A stretch of 8,177 nt of DNA, from contig CAMLDO010000060.1 in assembly GCA_946478865.1 (NCBI GenBank), positions 1 to 8,177 on the forward strand, given 5' to 3'. This DNA comes from an uncultured Methylobacillus sp. (lineage in GTDB: Bacteria; Pseudomonadota; Gammaproteobacteria; Burkholderiales; Methylophilaceae). A program made the position numbers and the translations under genes. Positions 937-8,177 of the stretch are shown piece by piece (within the stretch, counting starts at the first letter, position 1; every line of letters begins with the position of its first letter). The notes under the pieces are model-generated. The model was not told the origin of the DNA. It saw only the letters and a list, made by a program, of their open reading frames with translations, and made no database searches.

Positions 937-1821
937 TCACCCGGCGTAGCGGGTCAGGCACTCCGGCGCGTGGTACAGGGGGAAGCCATCGAACGGCTGT
1001 GAACGGTCGCTGGGCGCCAGGGTCCAGCCGGACCTGGCGTTGGGCACGCCGCCATCCACGCGGATGCAACTGCCGGTGATGAAGGCGGCTGCGGGCGACA
1101 ACAGGAAAACTGCCGCGGCAGCCACTTCCGCCTCGTTGCCGAGCCGCTGCAGCGGCACCTTGCGCGCGCTGGTGGCGAGCCGCCGTTGCGTGTCCTCCGG
1201 ATAGGTGTCGAGCCCGCTCGACGCGATCCAGCCTGGCGCCACGGCATTCACGCGTACACCCGCCCAGCCCCACTCACATGCAGCGGTCTCGGTCAGGTTG
1301 AGCATGCCCGCCCGTGCAGCGCCGGAGTGGCCCATGTTGGGCATGCCGTTCCACATGTCGGCCAGGATGTTGACGATGTTGCCGCCGTGCGACTCCATCC
1401 ATTGCAGATAGCACTCGCGCGAGAACAGGAAGCCGCCGGTCAGGTTGTTGGCAACCACGGCTTCCCAGCCTTTCTGGCTGATATTGCGCAGGTGCGAAGG
1501 GAATTGCCCCCCGGCGTTGTTGAACAGGCCGTCGATGCGACCGTGGGCGGCGATGATATCGGCCACGGTGGCGCGCACCGCTTCTTCCTGGCGGATATCA
1601 CAGGTATGGATCGAGATGCGCTGCCCGCTATCGGGGTTGGCGTGGTGAATCTCGTCACGCACGACCTCCAGCTTTTCCAGGTTGCGGCCCACCAGTGCGA
1701 GGTGGGCTCCCAGGCTCGCCAGCTCGTGCGCAGTGCAACGACCGATGCCACTGCCACCACCGGTGACGACTATTGTCTGGCCGGCAAACAGCCCGGGTCG
1801 GAACACAGAGTTATACGACAT
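937..1821 (-). CDS. SDR-family oxidoreductase, peroxisomal trans-2-enoyl-CoA reductase (PECR)-like
   Basis: This is a 294-residue short-chain dehydrogenase/reductase with a Rossmann fold. The nucleotide-binding motif TGGGSGIG is at residues 20-27, NNAG at 101-104 and a VNAVAPGW segment at 191-198. R46, after the second strand, suggests NADP(H) preference (inference). The usual YxxxK active site is absent: the aligned segment reads GHSGAARAG (164-172), with His and Arg where Tyr and Lys are expected. That form, followed by NLTETAACEWG, resembles eukaryotic PECR and the 2,4-dienoyl-CoA reductase branch, which points to enoyl- or dienoyl-CoA substrates rather than simple alcohols. A C-terminal extension after the VDGG motif (residues 255-258) runs about 35 residues. 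The ATG at 1819-1821 follows a GGAGACAGGT ribosome-binding region. The gene is the first of a two-gene unit with the acyl-CoA ligase and sits 3' of a conserved promoter segment. The fold is certain; the reaction is inferred. Confidence 0.9.
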   Translation of the reverse strand: MSYNSVFRPGLFAGQTIVVTGGGSGIGRCTAHELASLGAHLALVGRNLEKLEVVRDEIHHANPDSGQRISIHTCDIRQEEAVRATVADIIAAHGRIDGLFNNAGGQFPSHLRNISQKGWEAVVANNLTGGFLFSRECYLQWMESHGGNIVNILADMWNGMPNMGHSGAARAGMLNLTETAACEWGWAGVRVNAVAPGWIASSGLDTYPEDTQRRLATSARKVPLQRLGNEAEVAAAAVFLLSPAAAFITGSCIRVDGGVPNARSGWTLAPSDRSQPFDGFPLYHAPECLTRYAG

Positions 1822-1861
1822 ACCTGTCTCCTTACAGCGCCATGCGCCAATGCAAGCCCCG

Positions 1862-1890
1862 ATTCTGCTGGGAGAGGATGACTCTCTAAT
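1862..1890 (-). promoter_or_regulatory. Predicted sigma70-like promoter of the SDR-ligase unit
   Basis: A CAGAAT hexamer on the minus strand (1862-1867) is placed as the -10 element. At 17 bp upstream the -35 slot reads ATTAGA (1885-1890), which is poor and overlaps the operator, suggesting dependence on an activator. The -10 begins 19 bp from the operator edge, the same spacing as in the second copy. It lies about 40 bp from the SDR start codon. Confidence 0.5.
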
Positions 1891-1917
1891 CGCACTGTTG
1901 ATCTATTTCAGGACTAG
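1886..1917 (-). promoter_or_regulatory. Putative activator operator, copy 1
   Basis: This 32-bp core is shared with 3735-3766 with a single mismatch, at 1901 versus 3750. Read on the minus strand it opens with CTAGTCCTGAAATAGA and ends with CAACAGTGCGATTAG. The ends form an imperfect inverted repeat, CTAGTC against GATTAG (5 of 6 positions). The site overlaps the -35 position of the promoter downstream of it, as expected for a class II activator site. The neighbouring LAL-type regulator is the likely ligand; this is inferred from context. Confidence 0.7.
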
Positions 1918-2066
1918 TCGGACCAGTGCTGTTGAGCGGGCAGGCGGTGGCAGGAGGCGGCCACGACAGAAGAGGAGAAGTCGCAGCGGAACTGCGTTGC
2001 GGATGCGCTGGTCCAGCCCGAAAGCCCGCGGCGGCTGGCTATGGGAACGGCGCTGTGCCTTATTCG
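1918..2066. other. Intergenic region downstream of the DUF35 gene
   Basis: No convincing gene is visible between the DUF35 stop and the operator of the SDR unit. A small hairpin with a CGCAG/CTGCG stem lies at 1982-1996, and a looser CCAGCC/GGCTGG pairing near 2013-2040. On the minus strand the first is followed by a pyrimidine-rich tract but not a clean run of T. A weak terminator between the two units is possible but not demonstrated. Confidence 0.4.
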
Positions 2067-2468
2067 TCAGGCCGGCGCGAACACCGGCACCGGCGCGCCG
2101 TCTTCGGTGGTCGGCGCGAAACGCACCTGCACCGGCATGCCGATCTTCACCTCGTCGAGATCGATATCGACGATCCGCGTCATCATCGTCACACCCTCGT
2201 CGAGCGTCACGTAGGCGATGCAGAACGGGTGCGGCCCTGCCTTGCGCGTGATGCTGTAGCTGTAGACCTTGCCGCGGCCGGTGGCGGGCCGCCACTCGGT
2301 CTCGCCCATGCAGAACGGGCACAACGTGCGTGGATACCAGTGAGCCTTGCCGCACGATTTGCAGTGCTTCACCAGCAGCTGCCCCTCGCGGGCCGCCTGC
2401 CAGAAAGCGGTGCTGTCGGGTTGCTCGTCGGGGGCGTTGTACGGGGTGGGGATGTAAGGGGTGGTCAT
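2067..2468 (-). CDS. DUF35 Zn-ribbon/OB-fold protein, partner of the thiolase-like enzyme
   Basis: This is a 133-residue protein of the DUF35 (OB-fold with rubredoxin-like Zn ribbon) family, of usual length. The helical lead-in AFWQAAREGQLLVKHC (21-36) is followed by a zinc ribbon with cysteines C36, C39, C50 and C53 (CKSC, then LCPFC). An OB-fold of beta strands follows from about 63 (GRGKVYSYSITRKAG) to about 118. Such proteins are typically encoded beside thiolase-superfamily enzymes and form complexes with them; in steroid side-chain degradation the ChsH2 DUF35 domain is needed by the aldolase Ltp2. Here the ATG (2466-2468) lies only 15 bp after the stop of the thiolase-like gene, with a GGGAGAC ribosome-binding site inside that gap. 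The two are therefore surely one operon and probably one complex. The substrate is unknown. No residue stands out as missing. Confidence 0.92.
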   Translation of the reverse strand: MTTPYIPTPYNAPDEQPDSTAFWQAAREGQLLVKHCKSCGKAHWYPRTLCPFCMGETEWRPATGRGKVYSYSITRKAGPHPFCIAYVTLDEGVTMMTRIVDIDLDEVKIGMPVQVRFAPTTEDGAPVPVFAPA

Positions 2469-2483
2469 CGTCTGTCTCCCGTC

Positions 2484-3650
2484 TTATTCACGCTCGAGGA
2501 TCAGGGTCGCGGAACCGTGGCGCGAGCCCAGGTAGCCGCCAGTGCCCTGCGCAAGCGCGATGTCGCAGTTCTTCACCTGCACGGCAGGGTGCGCTTCGCC
2601 GCGCAACTGGCGCACGGCCTCGATCACCTTGGTGATGCCGCCGCGGTTGGCCGGGTGGTTGTTGCACAGGCCGCCGCCGTCGGTGTTGAAGGGCAACTTG
2701 CCGACGCCCGAGATCAGGTTGCCGTCCATTACGAACTTGCCGCCTTCGCCCTTCTTGCAGAAGCCGAGGTCCTCGAGCTGCATCAGCACGGTGATCGTGA
2801 AGCTGTCGTAGATCGACGCGTACTTGATGTCGGCCTGCGTCACGCCCGCCTCGGCGAAGGCCGCCGCGCCGGAGAACTTCGCGCCCGACCAGGTCAGGTC
2901 GACATAGCCACCGAGCTGCCCCTTCATGTACTCGCCTGCGCCGAGGATCTTCACCTTCGGCCGGCTCAGCTTCGCGGCGATTTCCGGGCGGGCGACGATC
3001 AGCGCGCCTCCGCCGTCCGACACCACGCAGCAATCCAGCTTATGCAGCGGGTCGGAGATCACGGGCGAGTTCAGCACATCTTCCACCGTGACCACGTCGC
3101 GCAGCATGGCGTTCGGGTTGTGCTGGGCGTGATGCGAGGCCGCCACCTTGATCCAGGCCAGTTGCTCCGCTGTGGTGCCGAATTCGTACATGTGGCGCAT
3201 GGCGACCATCGCGTACAGGTTCAGCGTCAGCGGACTGAACGGTACCTCGAACGGCGCCTCCGGGACGTTGGGGTCCACGTGGCGCGGCTGCGTGCCCCGC
3301 GAACCTTCCGAGCGCGGACGACCCGCGAGGGTGATCAGCGCGACATTGCACTTGCCGGCCGCGACCGCCTGCGCGGCGTGTGAGACGTGCGCAAGATAGG
3401 ACGAACCGCCGGTATCGGTCGAATCCACATGACTGACTTTCAGGCCGAGGTATTCGACCATGCTCAGCACGCCCACCCCCGGCGCATCGCCGGCGCAGAA
3501 GTAGCCGTCGACATCGGCCAGCGTGAGGCCGGCATCTTCCAGCGCGCCCTTGGCGCACTCGGCGTGGAGCTGCGCGACCGACTTGTCGGGCGCCTTGCGG
3601 GTCGGATGCTCGTAGGCCCCGACGATGTATGCCTTGCCGTTGATGCTCAT
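2484..3650 (-). CDS. Thiolase-superfamily protein (SCPx/lipid-transfer type) lacking canonical catalytic cysteines; possible acyl-CoA retro-aldolase
   Basis: This is a 388-residue thiolase-fold protein of the SCPx/Ltp branch. The N-terminal half begins GKAYIVGAYEHPTRKAPDKS (5-24) and continues with LHAECAKGALEDAGL and DVDGYFCAGDAPG. The place of the nucleophilic Cys reads DTGGSSYLAH (79-88), with no Cys. The position of the HDxF-type His reads YDSFTITVLMQLEDLGFC, with Tyr281. The GHP loop is NHPANRGG (331-338), and the late CxG Cys is replaced in QGTGGYLGS (368-376). These changes argue against thiolysis by the classical mechanism. They recall Ltp2-type steroid side-chain aldolases, which work with a DUF35 partner, and a DUF35 gene follows 15 bp downstream. 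The ATG at 3648-3650 is preferred because GGAGAG precedes it and homology starts there. An upstream in-frame ATG at 3728 would run through the promoter repeat and adds 26 unlikely residues. The fold is certain; the reaction is inferred. Confidence 0.9.
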   Translation of the reverse strand: MSINGKAYIVGAYEHPTRKAPDKSVAQLHAECAKGALEDAGLTLADVDGYFCAGDAPGVGVLSMVEYLGLKVSHVDSTDTGGSSYLAHVSHAAQAVAAGKCNVALITLAGRPRSEGSRGTQPRHVDPNVPEAPFEVPFSPLTLNLYAMVAMRHMYEFGTTAEQLAWIKVAASHHAQHNPNAMLRDVVTVEDVLNSPVISDPLHKLDCCVVSDGGGALIVARPEIAAKLSRPKVKILGAGEYMKGQLGGYVDLTWSGAKFSGAAAFAEAGVTQADIKYASIYDSFTITVLMQLEDLGFCKKGEGGKFVMDGNLISGVGKLPFNTDGGGLCNNHPANRGGITKVIEAVRQLRGEAHPAVQVKNCDIALAQGTGGYLGSRHGSATLILERE

Positions 3651-3710
3651 GCTCTCTCCAGTCAGGCCGCCATGACGTCGCCTACCGCGCCATGTGCCAA
3701 TGCAGCACCG

Positions 3711-3739
3711 ATTATGCCGCGAGAGCATGGTTCGCTAAT
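3711..3739 (-). promoter_or_regulatory. Predicted sigma70-like promoter of the thiolase-DUF35 unit
   Basis: CATAAT on the minus strand (3711-3716) is a fair -10 element. The -35 slot 17 bp upstream is ATTAGC (3734-3739), a poor match that overlaps the operator. The 19-bp offset between -10 and operator edge equals that in copy 1. The start codon is about 60 bp downstream, so the leader is about 20 nt longer than in the SDR unit. Confidence 0.55.
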
Positions 3740-3766
3740 CGCACTGTTGGTCTATTTCAGGACTAG
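3735..3766 (-). promoter_or_regulatory. Putative activator operator, copy 2
   Basis: This site matches 1886-1917 at 31 of 32 bases, with the same imperfect terminal dyad (CTAGTC/GATTAG). It covers the -35 slot of the promoter at 3711-3739, centred roughly 46 bp upstream of the predicted start of transcription. It lies between the thiolase-like gene and the downstream end of the LAL regulator gene, so it can only serve the catabolic unit. Binding by that regulator is an inference. Confidence 0.7.
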
Positions 3767-3900
3767 CACCAACTGCCGCTGCAGTCAGCGCTCATGACCT
3801 GTAACGCACTCGTACCGGCGGCTTACCGCGCAACGGAAGGAGAAATCGTTGATGGGCGAGACCCACCGGAGCGGTGCCTTGCAGCGGAAGATGCGCTGAA
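3767..3900. other. Intergenic region between the LAL regulator stop and the catabolic operator
   Basis: No secure gene is visible. Several short imperfect dyads occur, such as CACCG/CGGTG around 3870-3882, but none has a T-run that would mark an intrinsic terminator for the regulator gene. On the plus strand a 15-codon ORF (3852-3899) follows a purine-rich GGAAGGAG, but it has no recognisable product. Confidence 0.4.
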
Positions 3901-6558
3901 CTAGTCCAGCAGACCGCGACTGCGGGCAATGGAAATGGCTTCCATCCGACCACTCGCCCCGAGCTTTGCATAGATGTTGCGCAGGTGCGCCTTCACCGTG
4001 AACTCCGAGAGCGACATCTTGTCCGCGATGGTCTTGTTGCGTATCCCGCCAGCCAGCAGCCCGAGAACTTCCAGCTCGCGGAAGCTCAGCGCTTCGAACG
4101 ACTCCGCCGGTGATGTGGTGTCAGCATCCTCGGGTGGCTCCACTACACCCAGCCTCTCCAGCAGTCCGGCAAGAAAATGGGCGGCGATGCCGCTTTCACG
4201 CGGGCTTGACGCCCATTGCAGCACCAAAGCCTTCATCCCTTCGCCCTCTTCCAGGAAAGTCCGCAGGAATCCTTCCTGGCTCGCCCCGCGCAATGCTTCA
4301 GCCAACCCCGCCTCGGCAGCCTCCTTCTGTCCCTCTCGATTCAGGCACAGGGCCAACAGGATGCGCAGCTTGAGTGCGCAACGATAACGCTGAGAAACGG
4401 TCGCATCGTCGATCGCCTGCTGCAACTCCGCCGCCAGCCCGCTGCAGTCACCCCGAGCGATACGCAGGCGCGCCCAGCCGATGAAAGGTGTATCGACATC
4501 ATTGCCATACATCGAAACACCGGGACGCACCCACTGTGCATACATCCCGGCCGAGCGCAGAGCCTGTTCGGCAGCGTCGAGTCGACCTTCGATGGTGGCC
4601 AGCCGCGCGCGCTCCAGCCAGGCGGTGCAGATGATGCGGGGCGCAGCATGCTGCCGGCCAACTTCCTCCAGCGTGGCCAGCGTCTCCATGCTGCGTTCGC
4701 GGTCGCCGCGCAGCATGGCGATACGGGACATCAGCACGTGGACGATGATCAGCGGATCGTTAGGGGTACTCCCCTTCGTAAAAGGCATCATCCCACTGAG
4801 TACCCGCTCCGCCTCGTCGATGTCGCCGGTTTCATACAGGGCGAGTGCAAGGGGCACGCCCAGGGCGGTGCGTCCATCGGCTGGGACTACCTGGTCACCG
4901 CTGTAATATTGCCCCGAGGCAAGCCGCAGGCGTGCAAGCGCATCACCCAGACGTCCCTGCACCAGGTCGATGATGCTCTCGAAGGAATCCGTCGTAGCCT
5001 GCATGATGGACGAACGCAGCTTGCTGTCTCGCTGCAGGGCATGTGCCAGTATCTGACGCGCCTCGTCATAGCGGTAGTTCGAGATCAGGCAGTAGACCAG
5101 GACGTTGATCAGCCTTCGATACTGAAACTGCTGCTCCAGCGAGACGCGACCCAAATGCGCCTGAGTGACCTCCAGGCACGCTTCGACTTCGTCGCGCATC
5201 GCCATGCCCAGGCAGCGAATGACCTGCGCGTCGATCGATACCCTTTCCCGCTCCTCCACGGAAGACTGGAGCTGCTCAACGGCTTCCATCAGGCGAGACG
5301 CGTCATCGAAGCGACGATACAACGTCAGCGCCCACGCGCAGGTCATGCTCAGTTGCGGATCGCGCAGCAGCGCCTCGCGCGGGATATGGTCATGCCAGTG
5401 CAGGAGTTGCCGTATACCGCCACTCAGTTGAATGTCTGGCACGCACAGCGCAATTTGCGCCAATGCCTCGTCCACTGCCCCGCCTTGCAGCAGATGCTCC
5501 ACGGCCTCGAACCGCCGCCCTTGCGCGGCATACCAGCGGCCCGCATTACGGTGCAGGACGGCAGCCTTGCCCGGATACAGGCGCTCCAGCCGGTTGCGCA
5601 GGAAGTCTGCGAAGAGGTTGTGATAGCGGTACCAGGTGCCCTCCTCGTCCAGGCGGAAGACGAACAGGTTCGCACCTTCGAGGAATTCGATCATCTGCTG
5701 GCTGTCGCTTCGCCCGATGACCGCATCGCACAAGGGCGCGCACAGGCGGTCCAGCACACTCGTTTGCAGCAGGAACTCCTGGCAAGCCAGGCTTTGCCTC
5801 GCAAGGATGTCCTCGGCGAGGTACTGCGCGAGGTCCCGGTTGGTGCCAGTGAACGACTGCACGAAAGCGGCATGGTCGTTGCGCGCCTGCAACGACAGAG
5901 TGGCGAGATAGAGCGCCACGGCCCATCCCTCGGTGCGTCGGTGCAGCGTGGCGATCTCGCGATCGCACAGCGGCAGGCCCTGCCCCTCGCGAAAGAATGC
6001 GGTGGTTTCATCCAGCGAGAAGCGCAGCGTGGCAGGACCGACCTCCAGTAGATGCCCGCGTGCGCGAATACGGCCCACGCCGATCGCCGGAACATTGCGC
6101 GATGCCATTACCAGCGTTCCCCATGGCGGCAGCACATCGAGCACGTGGCGGATGTAATCGAGCACGTCCTGGCTGTGGATGACCTCGACTTCATCCAGCA
6201 TGATCGCGAAGCGCGTGGGATAGGCCGCAATGCGCTCGATCAGGTCGATGCCCTGTCCGTCGACCGCCCCGAAGCCGGCAGCGAGCAACGCCACGAAGCG
6301 GTCGATGTCATTGTCGGCGCCATCCAGGTTCACCCAATGGACCATGCGCCCGTCTGCCTGCGCGGCAGCCCGATACTGCTGCAGCAGCGTGGTCTTGCCG
6401 AAGCCCGCTGGCGCGCGGACCAGCATGAGCTTAGCCGAATCGGCAGCCAGCATCGATTCCACCAGCCGTTGGCGAGGCATCTGACCCGCGAGGGGCGCAG
6501 GCGGTATGAGTTTGGACGGGTAAATACGGTTGCTCCCGTCTCTTATTACTATATCCAT
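3901..6558 (-). CDS. LAL-family (MalT-like) LuxR-type transcriptional regulator
   Basis: This 885-residue protein has the layout of large ATP-binding LuxR regulators. A P-loop NTPase comes first, with Walker A APAGFGKTT at 49-57 and a Walker B-like FAIMLDEVEVI at 117-127. A long all-helical, TPR-like sensor region follows from about 350 to 800. A C-terminal LuxR HTH lies at about 822-885 (LSFRELEVLGLLAGG, then NKTIADKMSLSEFTVKAHLRNIYAKL). MalT and AlkS belong to this class: inducer and ATP drive assembly on DNA and activation of catabolic promoters. The ATG at 6556-6558 is chosen over a GTG at 6634-6636. The GTG would place the start inside the divergent recombinase gene, and the 26 extra residues do not look like the family. 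No strong Shine-Dalgarno precedes either. The gene is codirectional with the catabolic genes, whose shared operator is its likely target. The inducer is unknown; a pathway acid or CoA ester is plausible. Confidence 0.92.
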   Translation of the reverse strand: MDIVIRDGSNRIYPSKLIPPAPLAGQMPRQRLVESMLAADSAKLMLVRAPAGFGKTTLLQQYRAAAQADGRMVHWVNLDGADNDIDRFVALLAAGFGAVDGQGIDLIERIAAYPTRFAIMLDEVEVIHSQDVLDYIRHVLDVLPPWGTLVMASRNVPAIGVGRIRARGHLLEVGPATLRFSLDETTAFFREGQGLPLCDREIATLHRRTEGWAVALYLATLSLQARNDHAAFVQSFTGTNRDLAQYLAEDILARQSLACQEFLLQTSVLDRLCAPLCDAVIGRSDSQQMIEFLEGANLFVFRLDEEGTWYRYHNLFADFLRNRLERLYPGKAAVLHRNAGRWYAAQGRRFEAVEHLLQGGAVDEALAQIALCVPDIQLSGGIRQLLHWHDHIPREALLRDPQLSMTCAWALTLYRRFDDASRLMEAVEQLQSSVEERERVSIDAQVIRCLGMAMRDEVEACLEVTQAHLGRVSLEQQFQYRRLINVLVYCLISNYRYDEARQILAHALQRDSKLRSSIMQATTDSFESIIDLVQGRLGDALARLRLASGQYYSGDQVVPADGRTALGVPLALALYETGDIDEAERVLSGMMPFTKGSTPNDPLIIVHVLMSRIAMLRGDRERSMETLATLEEVGRQHAAPRIICTAWLERARLATIEGRLDAAEQALRSAGMYAQWVRPGVSMYGNDVDTPFIGWARLRIARGDCSGLAAELQQAIDDATVSQRYRCALKLRILLALCLNREGQKEAAEAGLAEALRGASQEGFLRTFLEEGEGMKALVLQWASSPRESGIAAHFLAGLLERLGVVEPPEDADTTSPAESFEALSFRELEVLGLLAGGIRNKTIADKMSLSEFTVKAHLRNIYAKLGASGRMEAISIARSRGLLD

Positions 6559-6573
6559 AGGACTGCTGGTTCC

Positions 6574-6589: not shown

Positions 6590-6612
6590 ATTTGGAGGCT
6601 TTTGGTGTGCAA
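6578..6612 (-). promoter_or_regulatory. Predicted promoter of the LAL regulator gene
   Basis: In an AT-rich patch (the 60 bp at 6541-6600 are about 40% GC, unlike the flanks), the minus strand shows TTGCAC (6607-6612), a 16-bp spacer and TATATA (6585-6590). Transcription would start near 6578, about 20 nt before the chosen ATG. The -35 would overlap the first codons of the divergent recombinase. The hexamers are moderate matches, so this is a prediction only. Confidence 0.4.
6594..6598 (+). promoter_or_regulatory. Ribosome-binding site setting the recombinase start
   Basis: GGAGG lies 8 nt before the GTG at 6607, which is in frame with the recombinase. No ATG in the open frame falls between here and the conserved core-binding domain. 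This makes GTG 6607 the best supported start. Confidence 0.55.
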
Positions 6613-7779
6613 TTGCAATCTTGCGATGGGCGCCACCGCACCATCGAGCGTCAGCAGATTTTGGCTTGGCGCAACAAAGTCATCGATGGCGGCCTATCCA
6701 AGCGCAGTTGGAACACATACTCCAACCATCTACGCACCATATGGGGATATGCGATCGAACACGGCATATTGCCGGAGGCAATGGTCAATCCGTTCAAGAA
6801 AACGACCGCTGTGGCACCGAAGCGTCCCAGCAAGATCGTCGCCGGCGAGGCGATTCACCGGGCCCGACGCTGGCTCATATCTCTTGCGGATGAAGAGCTC
6901 TGCACTGGAGAGCGCAGCCGAATCACGCCGGCTTGGTTCTGGCTAGCTACCTTCGAGATGTTCTACTACACGGGGATCCGCCTGAACGCCCTCCTCTGCC
7001 TACGCCTGCAGGACGTGGATTGGGATAACCAGCTGATCTTGGTGCGAGGCGAAACCGAGAAAACGCACCGCGAATTCCGAGTCCCGATTGTCGAAGGCCT
7101 GGCGCCCCACATTCGCCGACTGCTGCTCGAGGCCGAGCGCCTTGGCTTCACGCCGAAGGATCAACTGTTCAACGTCAACCGATTCTCCCCGCATTACAAA
7201 CGCGCTGAGATGAACTCCGACCAAGTCGAAGCGATGTACAAAAAGCTCATCGACAAGCTCGGTGTCAGGATGACGCCTCACCGATTCAGGCACACGCTGG
7301 CCACCGACCTGATGAAGCAGCCAGAAAGGAACATCCACCTTACGAAAAGCCTGCTGAACCACTCGAACATCGCCACGACGATGAGCTACATCGAGGCCGA
7401 CTACGACCACATACGAGAGGTTCTGCACGAGCGAAGCCTGCACCAAGGCGCTCTTCAACTGGTTCGTCACGCCGACGAAACAAGCGCACCGACCGCAAGC
7501 GAGCACCAGGTGCGAGAGCTGTCTTCGATGGAGCAGCTCCGAATTGAACAGGGCGATCAAGACCGCAGAGCACCGATGGACCCGGCGACACAAGAGTTGG
7601 CGTCAGCGCTACTGCAGGTGCAGTTCAACCGTGCCGGCACGAAACCATCCTTACCGCCCGAGGACCTGTTTGCGCTCAGCTTGCTCTTCACCATCCTGTC
7701 GAGCGCTGCACCAACTCCCTATTCTCGAGCTGGTTCAGGAAAAGGCTCTACGCGATTCGTGGCAAGAGCCTCGCCATAG
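6607..7779 (+). CDS. Tyrosine recombinase (phage-type site-specific integrase)
   Basis: This is a 390-residue tyrosine recombinase. The core-binding domain is at about 11-65 (TIERQQILAWRNKVIDGGLSK, then SWNTYSNHLRTIWGYAIEHG). The catalytic domain has the full set R125 (YTGIRLNALL), K152 (EKTHREF), H225-R228 (HRFRHTLATDL), H252 (LLNHSNIATT) and Y261 (MSYIEAD). It should cut and join DNA at an attachment site and is likely active. The reading frame stays open far upstream only because it lies antisense to the GC-rich regulator gene. The GTG at 6607, behind GGAGG, is taken as the start. The N-terminus is short: the first helix of the SAM-like domain seems missing or reduced. The C-terminal residues after about 366 look out of frame, and the real tail probably continues in the next frame to 7966. 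The gene is less GC-rich than the catabolic set (about 52% in 7201-7260 against 68% in 2641-2700), consistent with horizontal origin. Its neighbour is a tRNA-Lys 3' end. Confidence 0.88.
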   Translation: MQLQSCDGRHRTIERQQILAWRNKVIDGGLSKRSWNTYSNHLRTIWGYAIEHGILPEAMVNPFKKTTAVAPKRPSKIVAGEAIHRARRWLISLADEELCTGERSRITPAWFWLATFEMFYYTGIRLNALLCLRLQDVDWDNQLILVRGETEKTHREFRVPIVEGLAPHIRRLLLEAERLGFTPKDQLFNVNRFSPHYKRAEMNSDQVEAMYKKLIDKLGVRMTPHRFRHTLATDLMKQPERNIHLTKSLLNHSNIATTMSYIEADYDHIREVLHERSLHQGALQLVRHADETSAPTASEHQVRELSSMEQLRIEQGDQDRRAPMDPATQELASALLQVQFNRAGTKPSLPPEDLFALSLLFTILSSAAPTPYSRAGSGKGSTRFVARASP

Positions 7780-7966
7780 CGCAACGATGCGACGAATAGC
7801 AAAGCACCATCACCGGCATCCACTCGCAGCTCCTCATAGGGAAAATCTGACGCAGCTCCTGGTGCTTGAATTCTGGCGCCAGTCCTCTGGCTACGCGGAT
7901 TTCACCCAGCTAGAACGCCTGCGGCATTGCTGCACCGGCGGCGCTGCCCTACGCCCAAATAGCTGA
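7706..7966 (+). pseudogene. Frameshifted C-terminal tail of the recombinase
   Basis: From about 7706 a reading frame one base ahead of the recombinase encodes LHQLPILELVQEKALRDSWQ, continues to LEFWRQSSGYADFTQLERLR and stops at 7964-7966. Its third codon positions are mostly G or C, like the upstream recombinase, while the annotated frame after 7703 has mostly A/T third positions and a low-complexity tail ending at 7779. A loss of two bases in the GAGCGCTGCAC tract (for example GCGCGC shortened to GCGC), or a one-base gain, would explain the switch. The catalytic domain is upstream and unaffected. It could instead be a separate overlapping ORF or a sequencing error. Confidence 0.5.
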
Positions 7967-7985
7967 TTTCACTGACCCAGAAACG

Positions 7986-8016
7986 AAAAAGCCCGCCTTG
8001 GAGGGGCGGGCTTTTT
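7986..8016. terminator. Strong bidirectional rho-independent terminator
   Basis: A perfect 12-bp stem joins AAAAAGCCCGCC (7986-7997) and GGCGGGCTTTTT (8005-8016) around a 7-nt loop. A run of T follows the GC stem on both strands. It can end the recombinase transcript on the plus strand, lying 20 bp after the stop at 7966. It can also end the tRNA-Lys transcript on the minus strand. Confidence 0.93.
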
Positions 8017-8122
8017 CATATTGACATCACAAAGGAGCAAGCCTAATGCTCGCTTCATACGGCTGCAAGACTAGAAATCTGGCGACAAGCCCCTTCCTAG
8101 TACCGTACAACCGCTGCGAAAG
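8017..8122. other. Spacer between terminator and tRNA-Lys
   Basis: No gene, strong dyad or copy of the tRNA 3' end was seen in these 106 bp. If the element integrated into the tRNA, this is the outermost element DNA next to the attachment site. Confidence 0.4.
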
Positions 8123-8177
8123 TGGTGGGTCGTGTAGGATTCGAACCTACGACCAATTGGTTAAAAGCCAACTGCTC
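8123..8177 (-). tRNA. tRNA-Lys (anticodon TTT), 3' part, 5' end beyond the window
   Basis: On the minus strand an anticodon arm GTTGG-CTTTTAA-CCAAT gives anticodon TTT. It is followed by the variable loop, the T arm (GTAGG-TTCGAAT-CCTAC) and the acceptor strand ACGACCC, with discriminator A and an encoded CCA ending at 8123. The D arm and 5' acceptor strand lie outside. The 3' end faces the recombinase, the side where integrative elements enter tRNA genes. Confidence 0.95.

Follow-up and report, generated by a model that had tools for sequence, protein, structure and literature searches.

AlkS of Pseudomonas putida GPo1 is a LuxR/MalT-type activator of alkane catabolism whose operator is described as a 20-bp inverted repeat (PMC8784404, PMC3664771). 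As presented there, AlkS and its PalkB-PalkS2 promoters resemble the locus analysed here in combining a large LuxR/MalT-type activator, one operator in front of two units and a site upstream of the promoter (PMC8784404, PMC3664771). They differ in that the inner 20 bp of the 32-bp core repeated in our locus form a poor palindrome (4 of 10 positions symmetric), in that no core copy precedes our regulator gene within the DNA analysed, and in the pathway concerned. The MalT of Enterobacteria shares with our regulator the plan of ATPase, MalT-type TPR and GerE HTH; the protein studied here scores below the NCBI MalT equivalog cut-off (332.6 bits against 537 for PRK04841) and by this score does not count as MalT proper. 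Relatives of the regulator, 43-52% identical, belong to an unnamed clade of LAL regulators, defined here, from acyl-CoA gene clusters of Pseudomonas, Cupriavidus and Paraburkholderia. These clusters have in common with our locus the ligase and thiolase genes and a -10 at a fixed distance, and differ from it in their operator.

We analysed a stretch of 8,177 nucleotides, referred to as the window, in which the regulator and the catabolic genes lie, all on the minus strand, in the order LAL regulator, thiolase-like gene, OB-fold/Zn-ribbon partner, SDR and acyl-CoA ligase.

3901..6567, minus strand: LAL (MalT-like) regulator with ATPase, MalT-type TPR and GerE HTH (query stretch; nearest ATG at 6558)
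2484..3650, minus strand: thiolase-like gene (PRK08142 family), 91% identical to a Cupriavidus-genus copy
2067..2468, minus strand: Zn-ribbon OB-fold (ChsH2-type) partner, 91% identical to locus L148
937..1821, minus strand: SDR oxidoreductase of the second unit, best match 68% in the plasmid collection
3..905, minus strand: acyl-CoA ligase, running off the window edge (related ligases begin MYLT, i.e. at ATG 893)
about 6607-7779, plus strand: tyrosine integrase (Pfam)

The regulator has the composition of a LAL (large LuxR/MalT-type) protein, with a Walker A ATPase, a MalT-type TPR and a C-terminal GerE HTH in a chain of about 900 residues. Over its approximately 886 residues, TPR_MalT and GerE score above the Pfam cut-off and the P-loop GFGKT is present, with ATPase-type Pfam models matching only below cut-off. 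Among the other five main ORFs scanned in the window, Pfam detected no transcription regulator. A partial tRNA on the plus strand at the right window edge matches Rfam; ARAGORN reported none, and its assignment to Lys comes from reading the sequence. Together, the integrase and the edge tRNA suggest that an integrated element or island ends here and that the catabolic genes form its terminal part. Separately, the window tail (within 6607-8177) resembles DNA of Pseudomonas aeruginosa plasmid records.

Two promoter-leader cassettes and their core

Each of the two catabolic units is preceded by a copy of the same promoter-leader block, and both cassettes and their genes are read on the minus strand.

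1832..1917, minus strand: promoter-leader cassette, SDR copy, with the -10-like CAGAAT at 1862-1867 (plus coordinates) and ATTAGA at -35
1886..1917, minus strand: 32-bp core, SDR copy, CTAGTCCTGAAATAGATCAACAGTGCGATTAG
3682..3766, minus strand: promoter-leader cassette, thiolase copy, with the -10-like CATAAT at 3711-3716 (plus coordinates) and ATTAGC at -35
3735..3766, minus strand: 32-bp core, thiolase copy, CTAGTCCTGAAATAGACCAACAGTGCGATTAG

A preliminary description of this DNA had reported that the cores agree at 31 of 32 bases and that identity beyond them is about 78%. Our recount returned the same values, with 42 of 54 aligned columns identical outside the core. A repeat search recovered the block as a 63-bp pair (86%) and an adjoining 22-bp pair (91%) with a one-base offset between them, and flanking identity is 20-30% immediately upstream of the core and 17.5% immediately downstream of the block. 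The end of the likeness had been placed at the ribosome-binding sites, which holds for the SDR copy; in the thiolase copy some 32 bp still separate the end of the block from the ATG.

The core is better kept than the rest of the block: 1 of its 32 columns differs, against 12 of the 54 outside it, among them one gap and a mismatch in the final column (Fisher p = 0.026, resting on one sequence pair). In each copy 18 nt separate the edge of the core from the -10-like hexamer, so that the identical spacing reported earlier stands and its length of 19 bp is corrected. ATTAGA and ATTAGC lie 17 bp from the -10 in their respective copies. Consistent with the poor -35 noted before, a scan of positions 1780-3960 returned no sigma-70-type site at its cut-off, and CAGAAT agrees with a -10 hexamer at only 4 of 6 positions. 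A -10 hexamer preceded by a poor -35, with a conserved site that overlaps the -35 or lies upstream of it, is the arrangement of an activator-dependent sigma-70 promoter, and we consider the core likely to be a regulatory site.

Another account would hold that only a promoter-leader piece was duplicated and that the core, no more important than its surroundings, is not a dedicated operator. The sharp ends of the shared block, which takes in the leader, and the directly visible graft described below agree with it, but the unequal conservation of core and remainder, and a core position relative to the -10 that is that of an activator site, render this account improbable. The conserved entity might also be an RNA element of the leader, such as a riboswitch or an attenuator, as 22 bp of the leader are 91% alike; the best-kept part, however, lies upstream of the -10, and Rfam at gathering scores found no match in the cassettes, which leaves very little room for such an element.

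The dyad CTAGTC...GATTAG at the core ends matches at 5 of 6 positions; some such dyad arises in 45% of 5000 shuffled cores, but in only 0.5% does it fall precisely on the two core ends. A direct-repeat reading (TAGTCC/TAGACC, 11 bp apart) was dropped, equally loose repeats being present in 42-66% of shuffled cores.

With its variable base written as R, the core pattern matches the window twice at up to three mismatches and does not occur in 200 dinucleotide shuffles. The preliminary description had taken the core as the mark of a regulon; the relatives and collections searched gave no matches above chance. The pattern was absent from sets of 17 and 25 genomes (these sets and one of 398 genomes overlap), and a 24-base version matched in 4 of the 398 genomes, always with three mismatches and inside an open frame; two of these matches are mutually identical, and the chance estimate is 1-2 (backwards control, 0). 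Neither the 86-bp module in 249 Burkholderiaceae genomes (a search without positive control), nor the exact 24-mer of the core in viral contigs, nor the 239-base SDR upstream region in plasmids at E 1e-5 gave a match. The thiolase upstream region drew 48 weak plasmid records at E up to 10; among the matches listed, 33 leader bases were matched at E ~1 and the core was not. A module/core HMM run over 151 loci returned nothing but the window below E 0.1, and six SDR loci (L152-L157) contained neither module nor core. Across 77 loci no core rose above chance, the best core-like outside match being 22 of 32 bases in L045 (0.2 expected from shuffled consensuses), whose LAL protein is 37% identical to ours.

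Nothing points to an insertion-sequence end, no further copies having turned up in the collections searched. That the core occurs twice in a cluster with an integrase and a partial tRNA next to it could suggest the end of a mobile element, a MITE or another repeat. The want of further copies above chance, together with the fact that neither terminal inverted repeats nor flanking duplications were seen by eye in the window, makes this extremely unlikely.

The junction before the thiolase gene

Between the thiolase copy of the cassette and the thiolase ATG lies the tail of another gene.

3651..3682, minus strand: 3'-end remnant of an acyl-CoA dehydrogenase gene (..VGDVMAA*) with RBS

Base 3682 is common to the remnant and the aligned cassette block. 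The 32 bases before the window thiolase ATG agree at 28 of 32 positions with the tail and RBS of a Cupriavidus-relative locus (L123), where the frame ends in ..YGDAMAA* in place of ..VGDVMAA*. In L148, a longer piece around L123, BLAST homology extends from 2067, the OB-fold stop, to 3695. It thus ends within the last bases of the cassette, where cassette and dehydrogenase tail share the short word TGG.GCGC..TA.

The thiolase is widespread in Cupriavidus-genus genomes (43 of 50 at E <= 1e-150). A frame with a ..GDTDL(H/Y)..ER.. tail lies 11-37 nt before the thiolase ATG in 6 of 30 loci (L123, L112, L142, L143, L122 and L147), the remaining loci having different sequence there. The L148 frame ending in the dehydrogenase tail has no Pfam match itself, and its identification rests on the Cupriavidus metallidurans locus L112, in which Pfam assigns the gene with the same tail to the acyl-CoA dehydrogenases. 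Genome G426 (L123, L148, L151) carries six thiolase copies at E <= 1e-150.

The Cupriavidus thiolase/OB-fold pair (PRK08142, ChsH2-like) matches the window in protein identity (91%), in gene pairing and in the upstream dehydrogenase tail. In contrast to the window, the pair there directly follows that tail, without a cassette; a search of the Cupriavidus loci L148 and L149 revealed no LAL homologue. The tail match and the L148 homology indicate that the thiolase/OB-fold pair brought along the end of the gene that used to precede it; the cassette sits directly on this scar. As the dehydrogenase remnant ahead of the thiolase shows, the likeness of the cassettes stems in the first place from copying, rather than from a motif having been conserved independently. 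We regard it as highly probable that a promoter cassette was copied onto a captured gene pair; the mechanism and direction of copying are inferred, and either cassette may be the older. The earlier reading thus survives in part: there are two related promoter modules before two catabolic units, with a better-kept core, but their resemblance has its first source in copying.

The operator of related LAL regulators

The closest LAL homologues reach 55% identity, and 52% among those whose DNA was examined. In 20 loci with a LAL gene we compared the regions upstream of the related ligase and found, by pattern, CTAGTYC-n-TTCG-AACCA-like boxes in 18 of them (L010 being a variant and L008 excepted). 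A second box, TTCG or TTTG, follows 34-37 bp after the first, and a TAAAGT/TAGTAT-like -10 lies exactly 31 bp after the second box in 21 of 24 model sequences, the pattern having no match in L041, L059 and L008. These 24 sequences, the misplaced L008 included, were built into a 96-bp HMM, and a half-site matrix was derived from the 23 that remain after removal of L008.

The model yielded 40 matches at E <= 1e-3 across 122 loci. Operators were present in 29 loci of the set L001-L042 (42 loci, LAL identity 38-50%), in 1 of the 35 loci L043-L077 (LAL 34-38%), namely L059, whose LAL is 49% identical and which was in the model, in 1 of 30 short loci (L078-L107) and in 2 of 15 loci (L108-L122). Ten operator-bearing loci were outside the model set. 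All 40 matches have an open frame of more than 120 codons within 450 bp downstream, which by its first residues is a ligase in 23 cases and a thiolase homologue in 8. Seven operators stand before an acyl-CoA dehydrogenase, Pfam-checked in L041, L032, L059 and L009 and assigned in L033, L018 and L026 by first residues identical to those of L032; the remaining ones precede an ETF subunit (L029) and an aldehyde dehydrogenase (L031). Four loci (L002, L004, L005 and L039) contained neither a clade-type operator by HMM nor a core-like sequence by eye. As judged from these alignments, the relatives of the window LAL (43-52% identical) have a clearly conserved predicted tandem TTCG/TTTG operator that differs from the core. 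A literature search, mainly of freely readable papers, found no description of it.

Several of these loci have features of their own. Before the MYLTQGLHR ligase, the operators include an outer dyad CTGTCGT...ACGACAG in L003, and an inner palindrome TTGGTCC-GTTC-GGACCAA is seen in L015, L019, L036 and L042. Divergent thiolase and acyl-CoA dehydrogenase genes, with a clade-type operator at each, occur in L018, L026, L032, L033 and L041. In Cupriavidus pauculus L019, two similar upstream-like regions (4842-4976 and 7898-8037) near another LAL gene share a GATTAAGCCGTG/CACGGCTTAATC element, possibly a second case of paired promoters.

The core and its candidate activator

The tandem boxes, with box 2 set 31 bp from the -10 in the relatives, are absent from the window: the best HMM score of the clade operator is 3.7 bits (E 0.33), in coding DNA, and the nearly invariant TTCG is missing from the core. 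Conversely, no core turned up in the relatives searched, whose clusters keep a homologue of the regulator at identities of at most 52%. The preliminary description had named such an absence as grounds for refutation, and for homologues at this distance the outcome weighs against the link between core and regulator drawn there.

Some resemblance may nevertheless exist at the level of half-sites. Scored with the clade half-sites CTAGTYC/GAACCA at a 6-bp spacer, the cores rank first and second of 16,318 window positions (11.8 and 10.0 bits), whereas at the clade's own 4-bp spacer they rank 676 and 1201; other spacers give higher-scoring window positions (12.3 bits at 4, 13.6 at 7 and 13.2 at 8). 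Because the likeness was spotted by eye before scoring and eight spacers were tried, with two core copies that are not independent, it is suggestive only, and it concerns the half-sites alone. Measured from the -10, the first half-site of the core stands at 50 nt and box 2 of L001 at 39 nt, a shift of 11 bp or about one helical turn. The recognition helix of the LAL protein, SEFTVKAHLRNIYAKLG, is nearly that of its relatives, SEFTVKSHLRNINAKLG, and so the protein offers no clear reason for a changed site; the Y of this helix recurs in L041 and L018, loci with clade-type operators. The branch placed next to the window LAL in the tree, L059 with P0018 (local support 0.80), likewise has a clade-type operator.

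These results leave room for an arrangement in which the cassettes are co-regulated, with the core serving another activator or repressor encoded outside the window and the LAL protein using a clade-type operator elsewhere. The window has no such operator, the LAL-bearing relatives searched have no core, and only 8 kb of the cluster are visible, so that further regulators may exist. Against it stand the lack of a Pfam-detectable regulator among the other main ORFs scanned, the post hoc half-site likeness, and the nature of both units, which consist of gene types found behind the clade's operators. We consider this arrangement a credible possibility at clearly less than even odds.

We propose instead, with a probability of roughly 0.48 for the explanation as a whole, that a single activator-dependent promoter cassette is present here as two paralogous modules. 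The activator would bind at the 32-bp core, which overlaps the weak -35 and extends just upstream of it, with 17 bp between the -35 and the -10. One cassette would drive the SDR-ligase unit. The other would have been placed by recombination, perhaps at the shared word, before the thiolase/OB-fold pair, itself captured along with the final codons of the acyl-CoA dehydrogenase gene that preceded it, bringing this pair under the same control as the SDR-ligase unit. Both acyl-CoA gene groups probably answer to one activator, and the LAL protein is a plausible best candidate for that role at both units. In the relatives, LAL genes of this clade adjoin ligase, thiolase, dehydrogenase and ETF genes whose promoters have a conserved operator, which speaks for LAL control of both cassettes. 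The activator would then most likely act on CTAGTCC-N6-AGAYCA-type half-sites, and putative binding of the core by the adjacent LAL protein has, on these comparisons, nearly an even chance.

A bolder version is a growing regulon, in which the cassette was copied through a microhomology junction and the regulator moved from the tandem TTCG operator to a single site, CTAGTCC-N6-AGAYCA...GATTAG. We think this doubtful; if true, operator, spacing and regulator would have changed together in one catabolic cluster beside an integrase.

Overall, the regulation at this locus is of an ordinary kind, but the scar of its assembly is unusually clear, and the locus does not share the well-defined operator of its relatives. 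For a clade of LAL regulators in Pseudomonas and Burkholderiaceae, the analysis provides an operator and a promoter geometry that can be tested. In the window, the readable scar shows how a borrowed gene pair can be wired into a catabolic regulon by a pasted promoter cassette.
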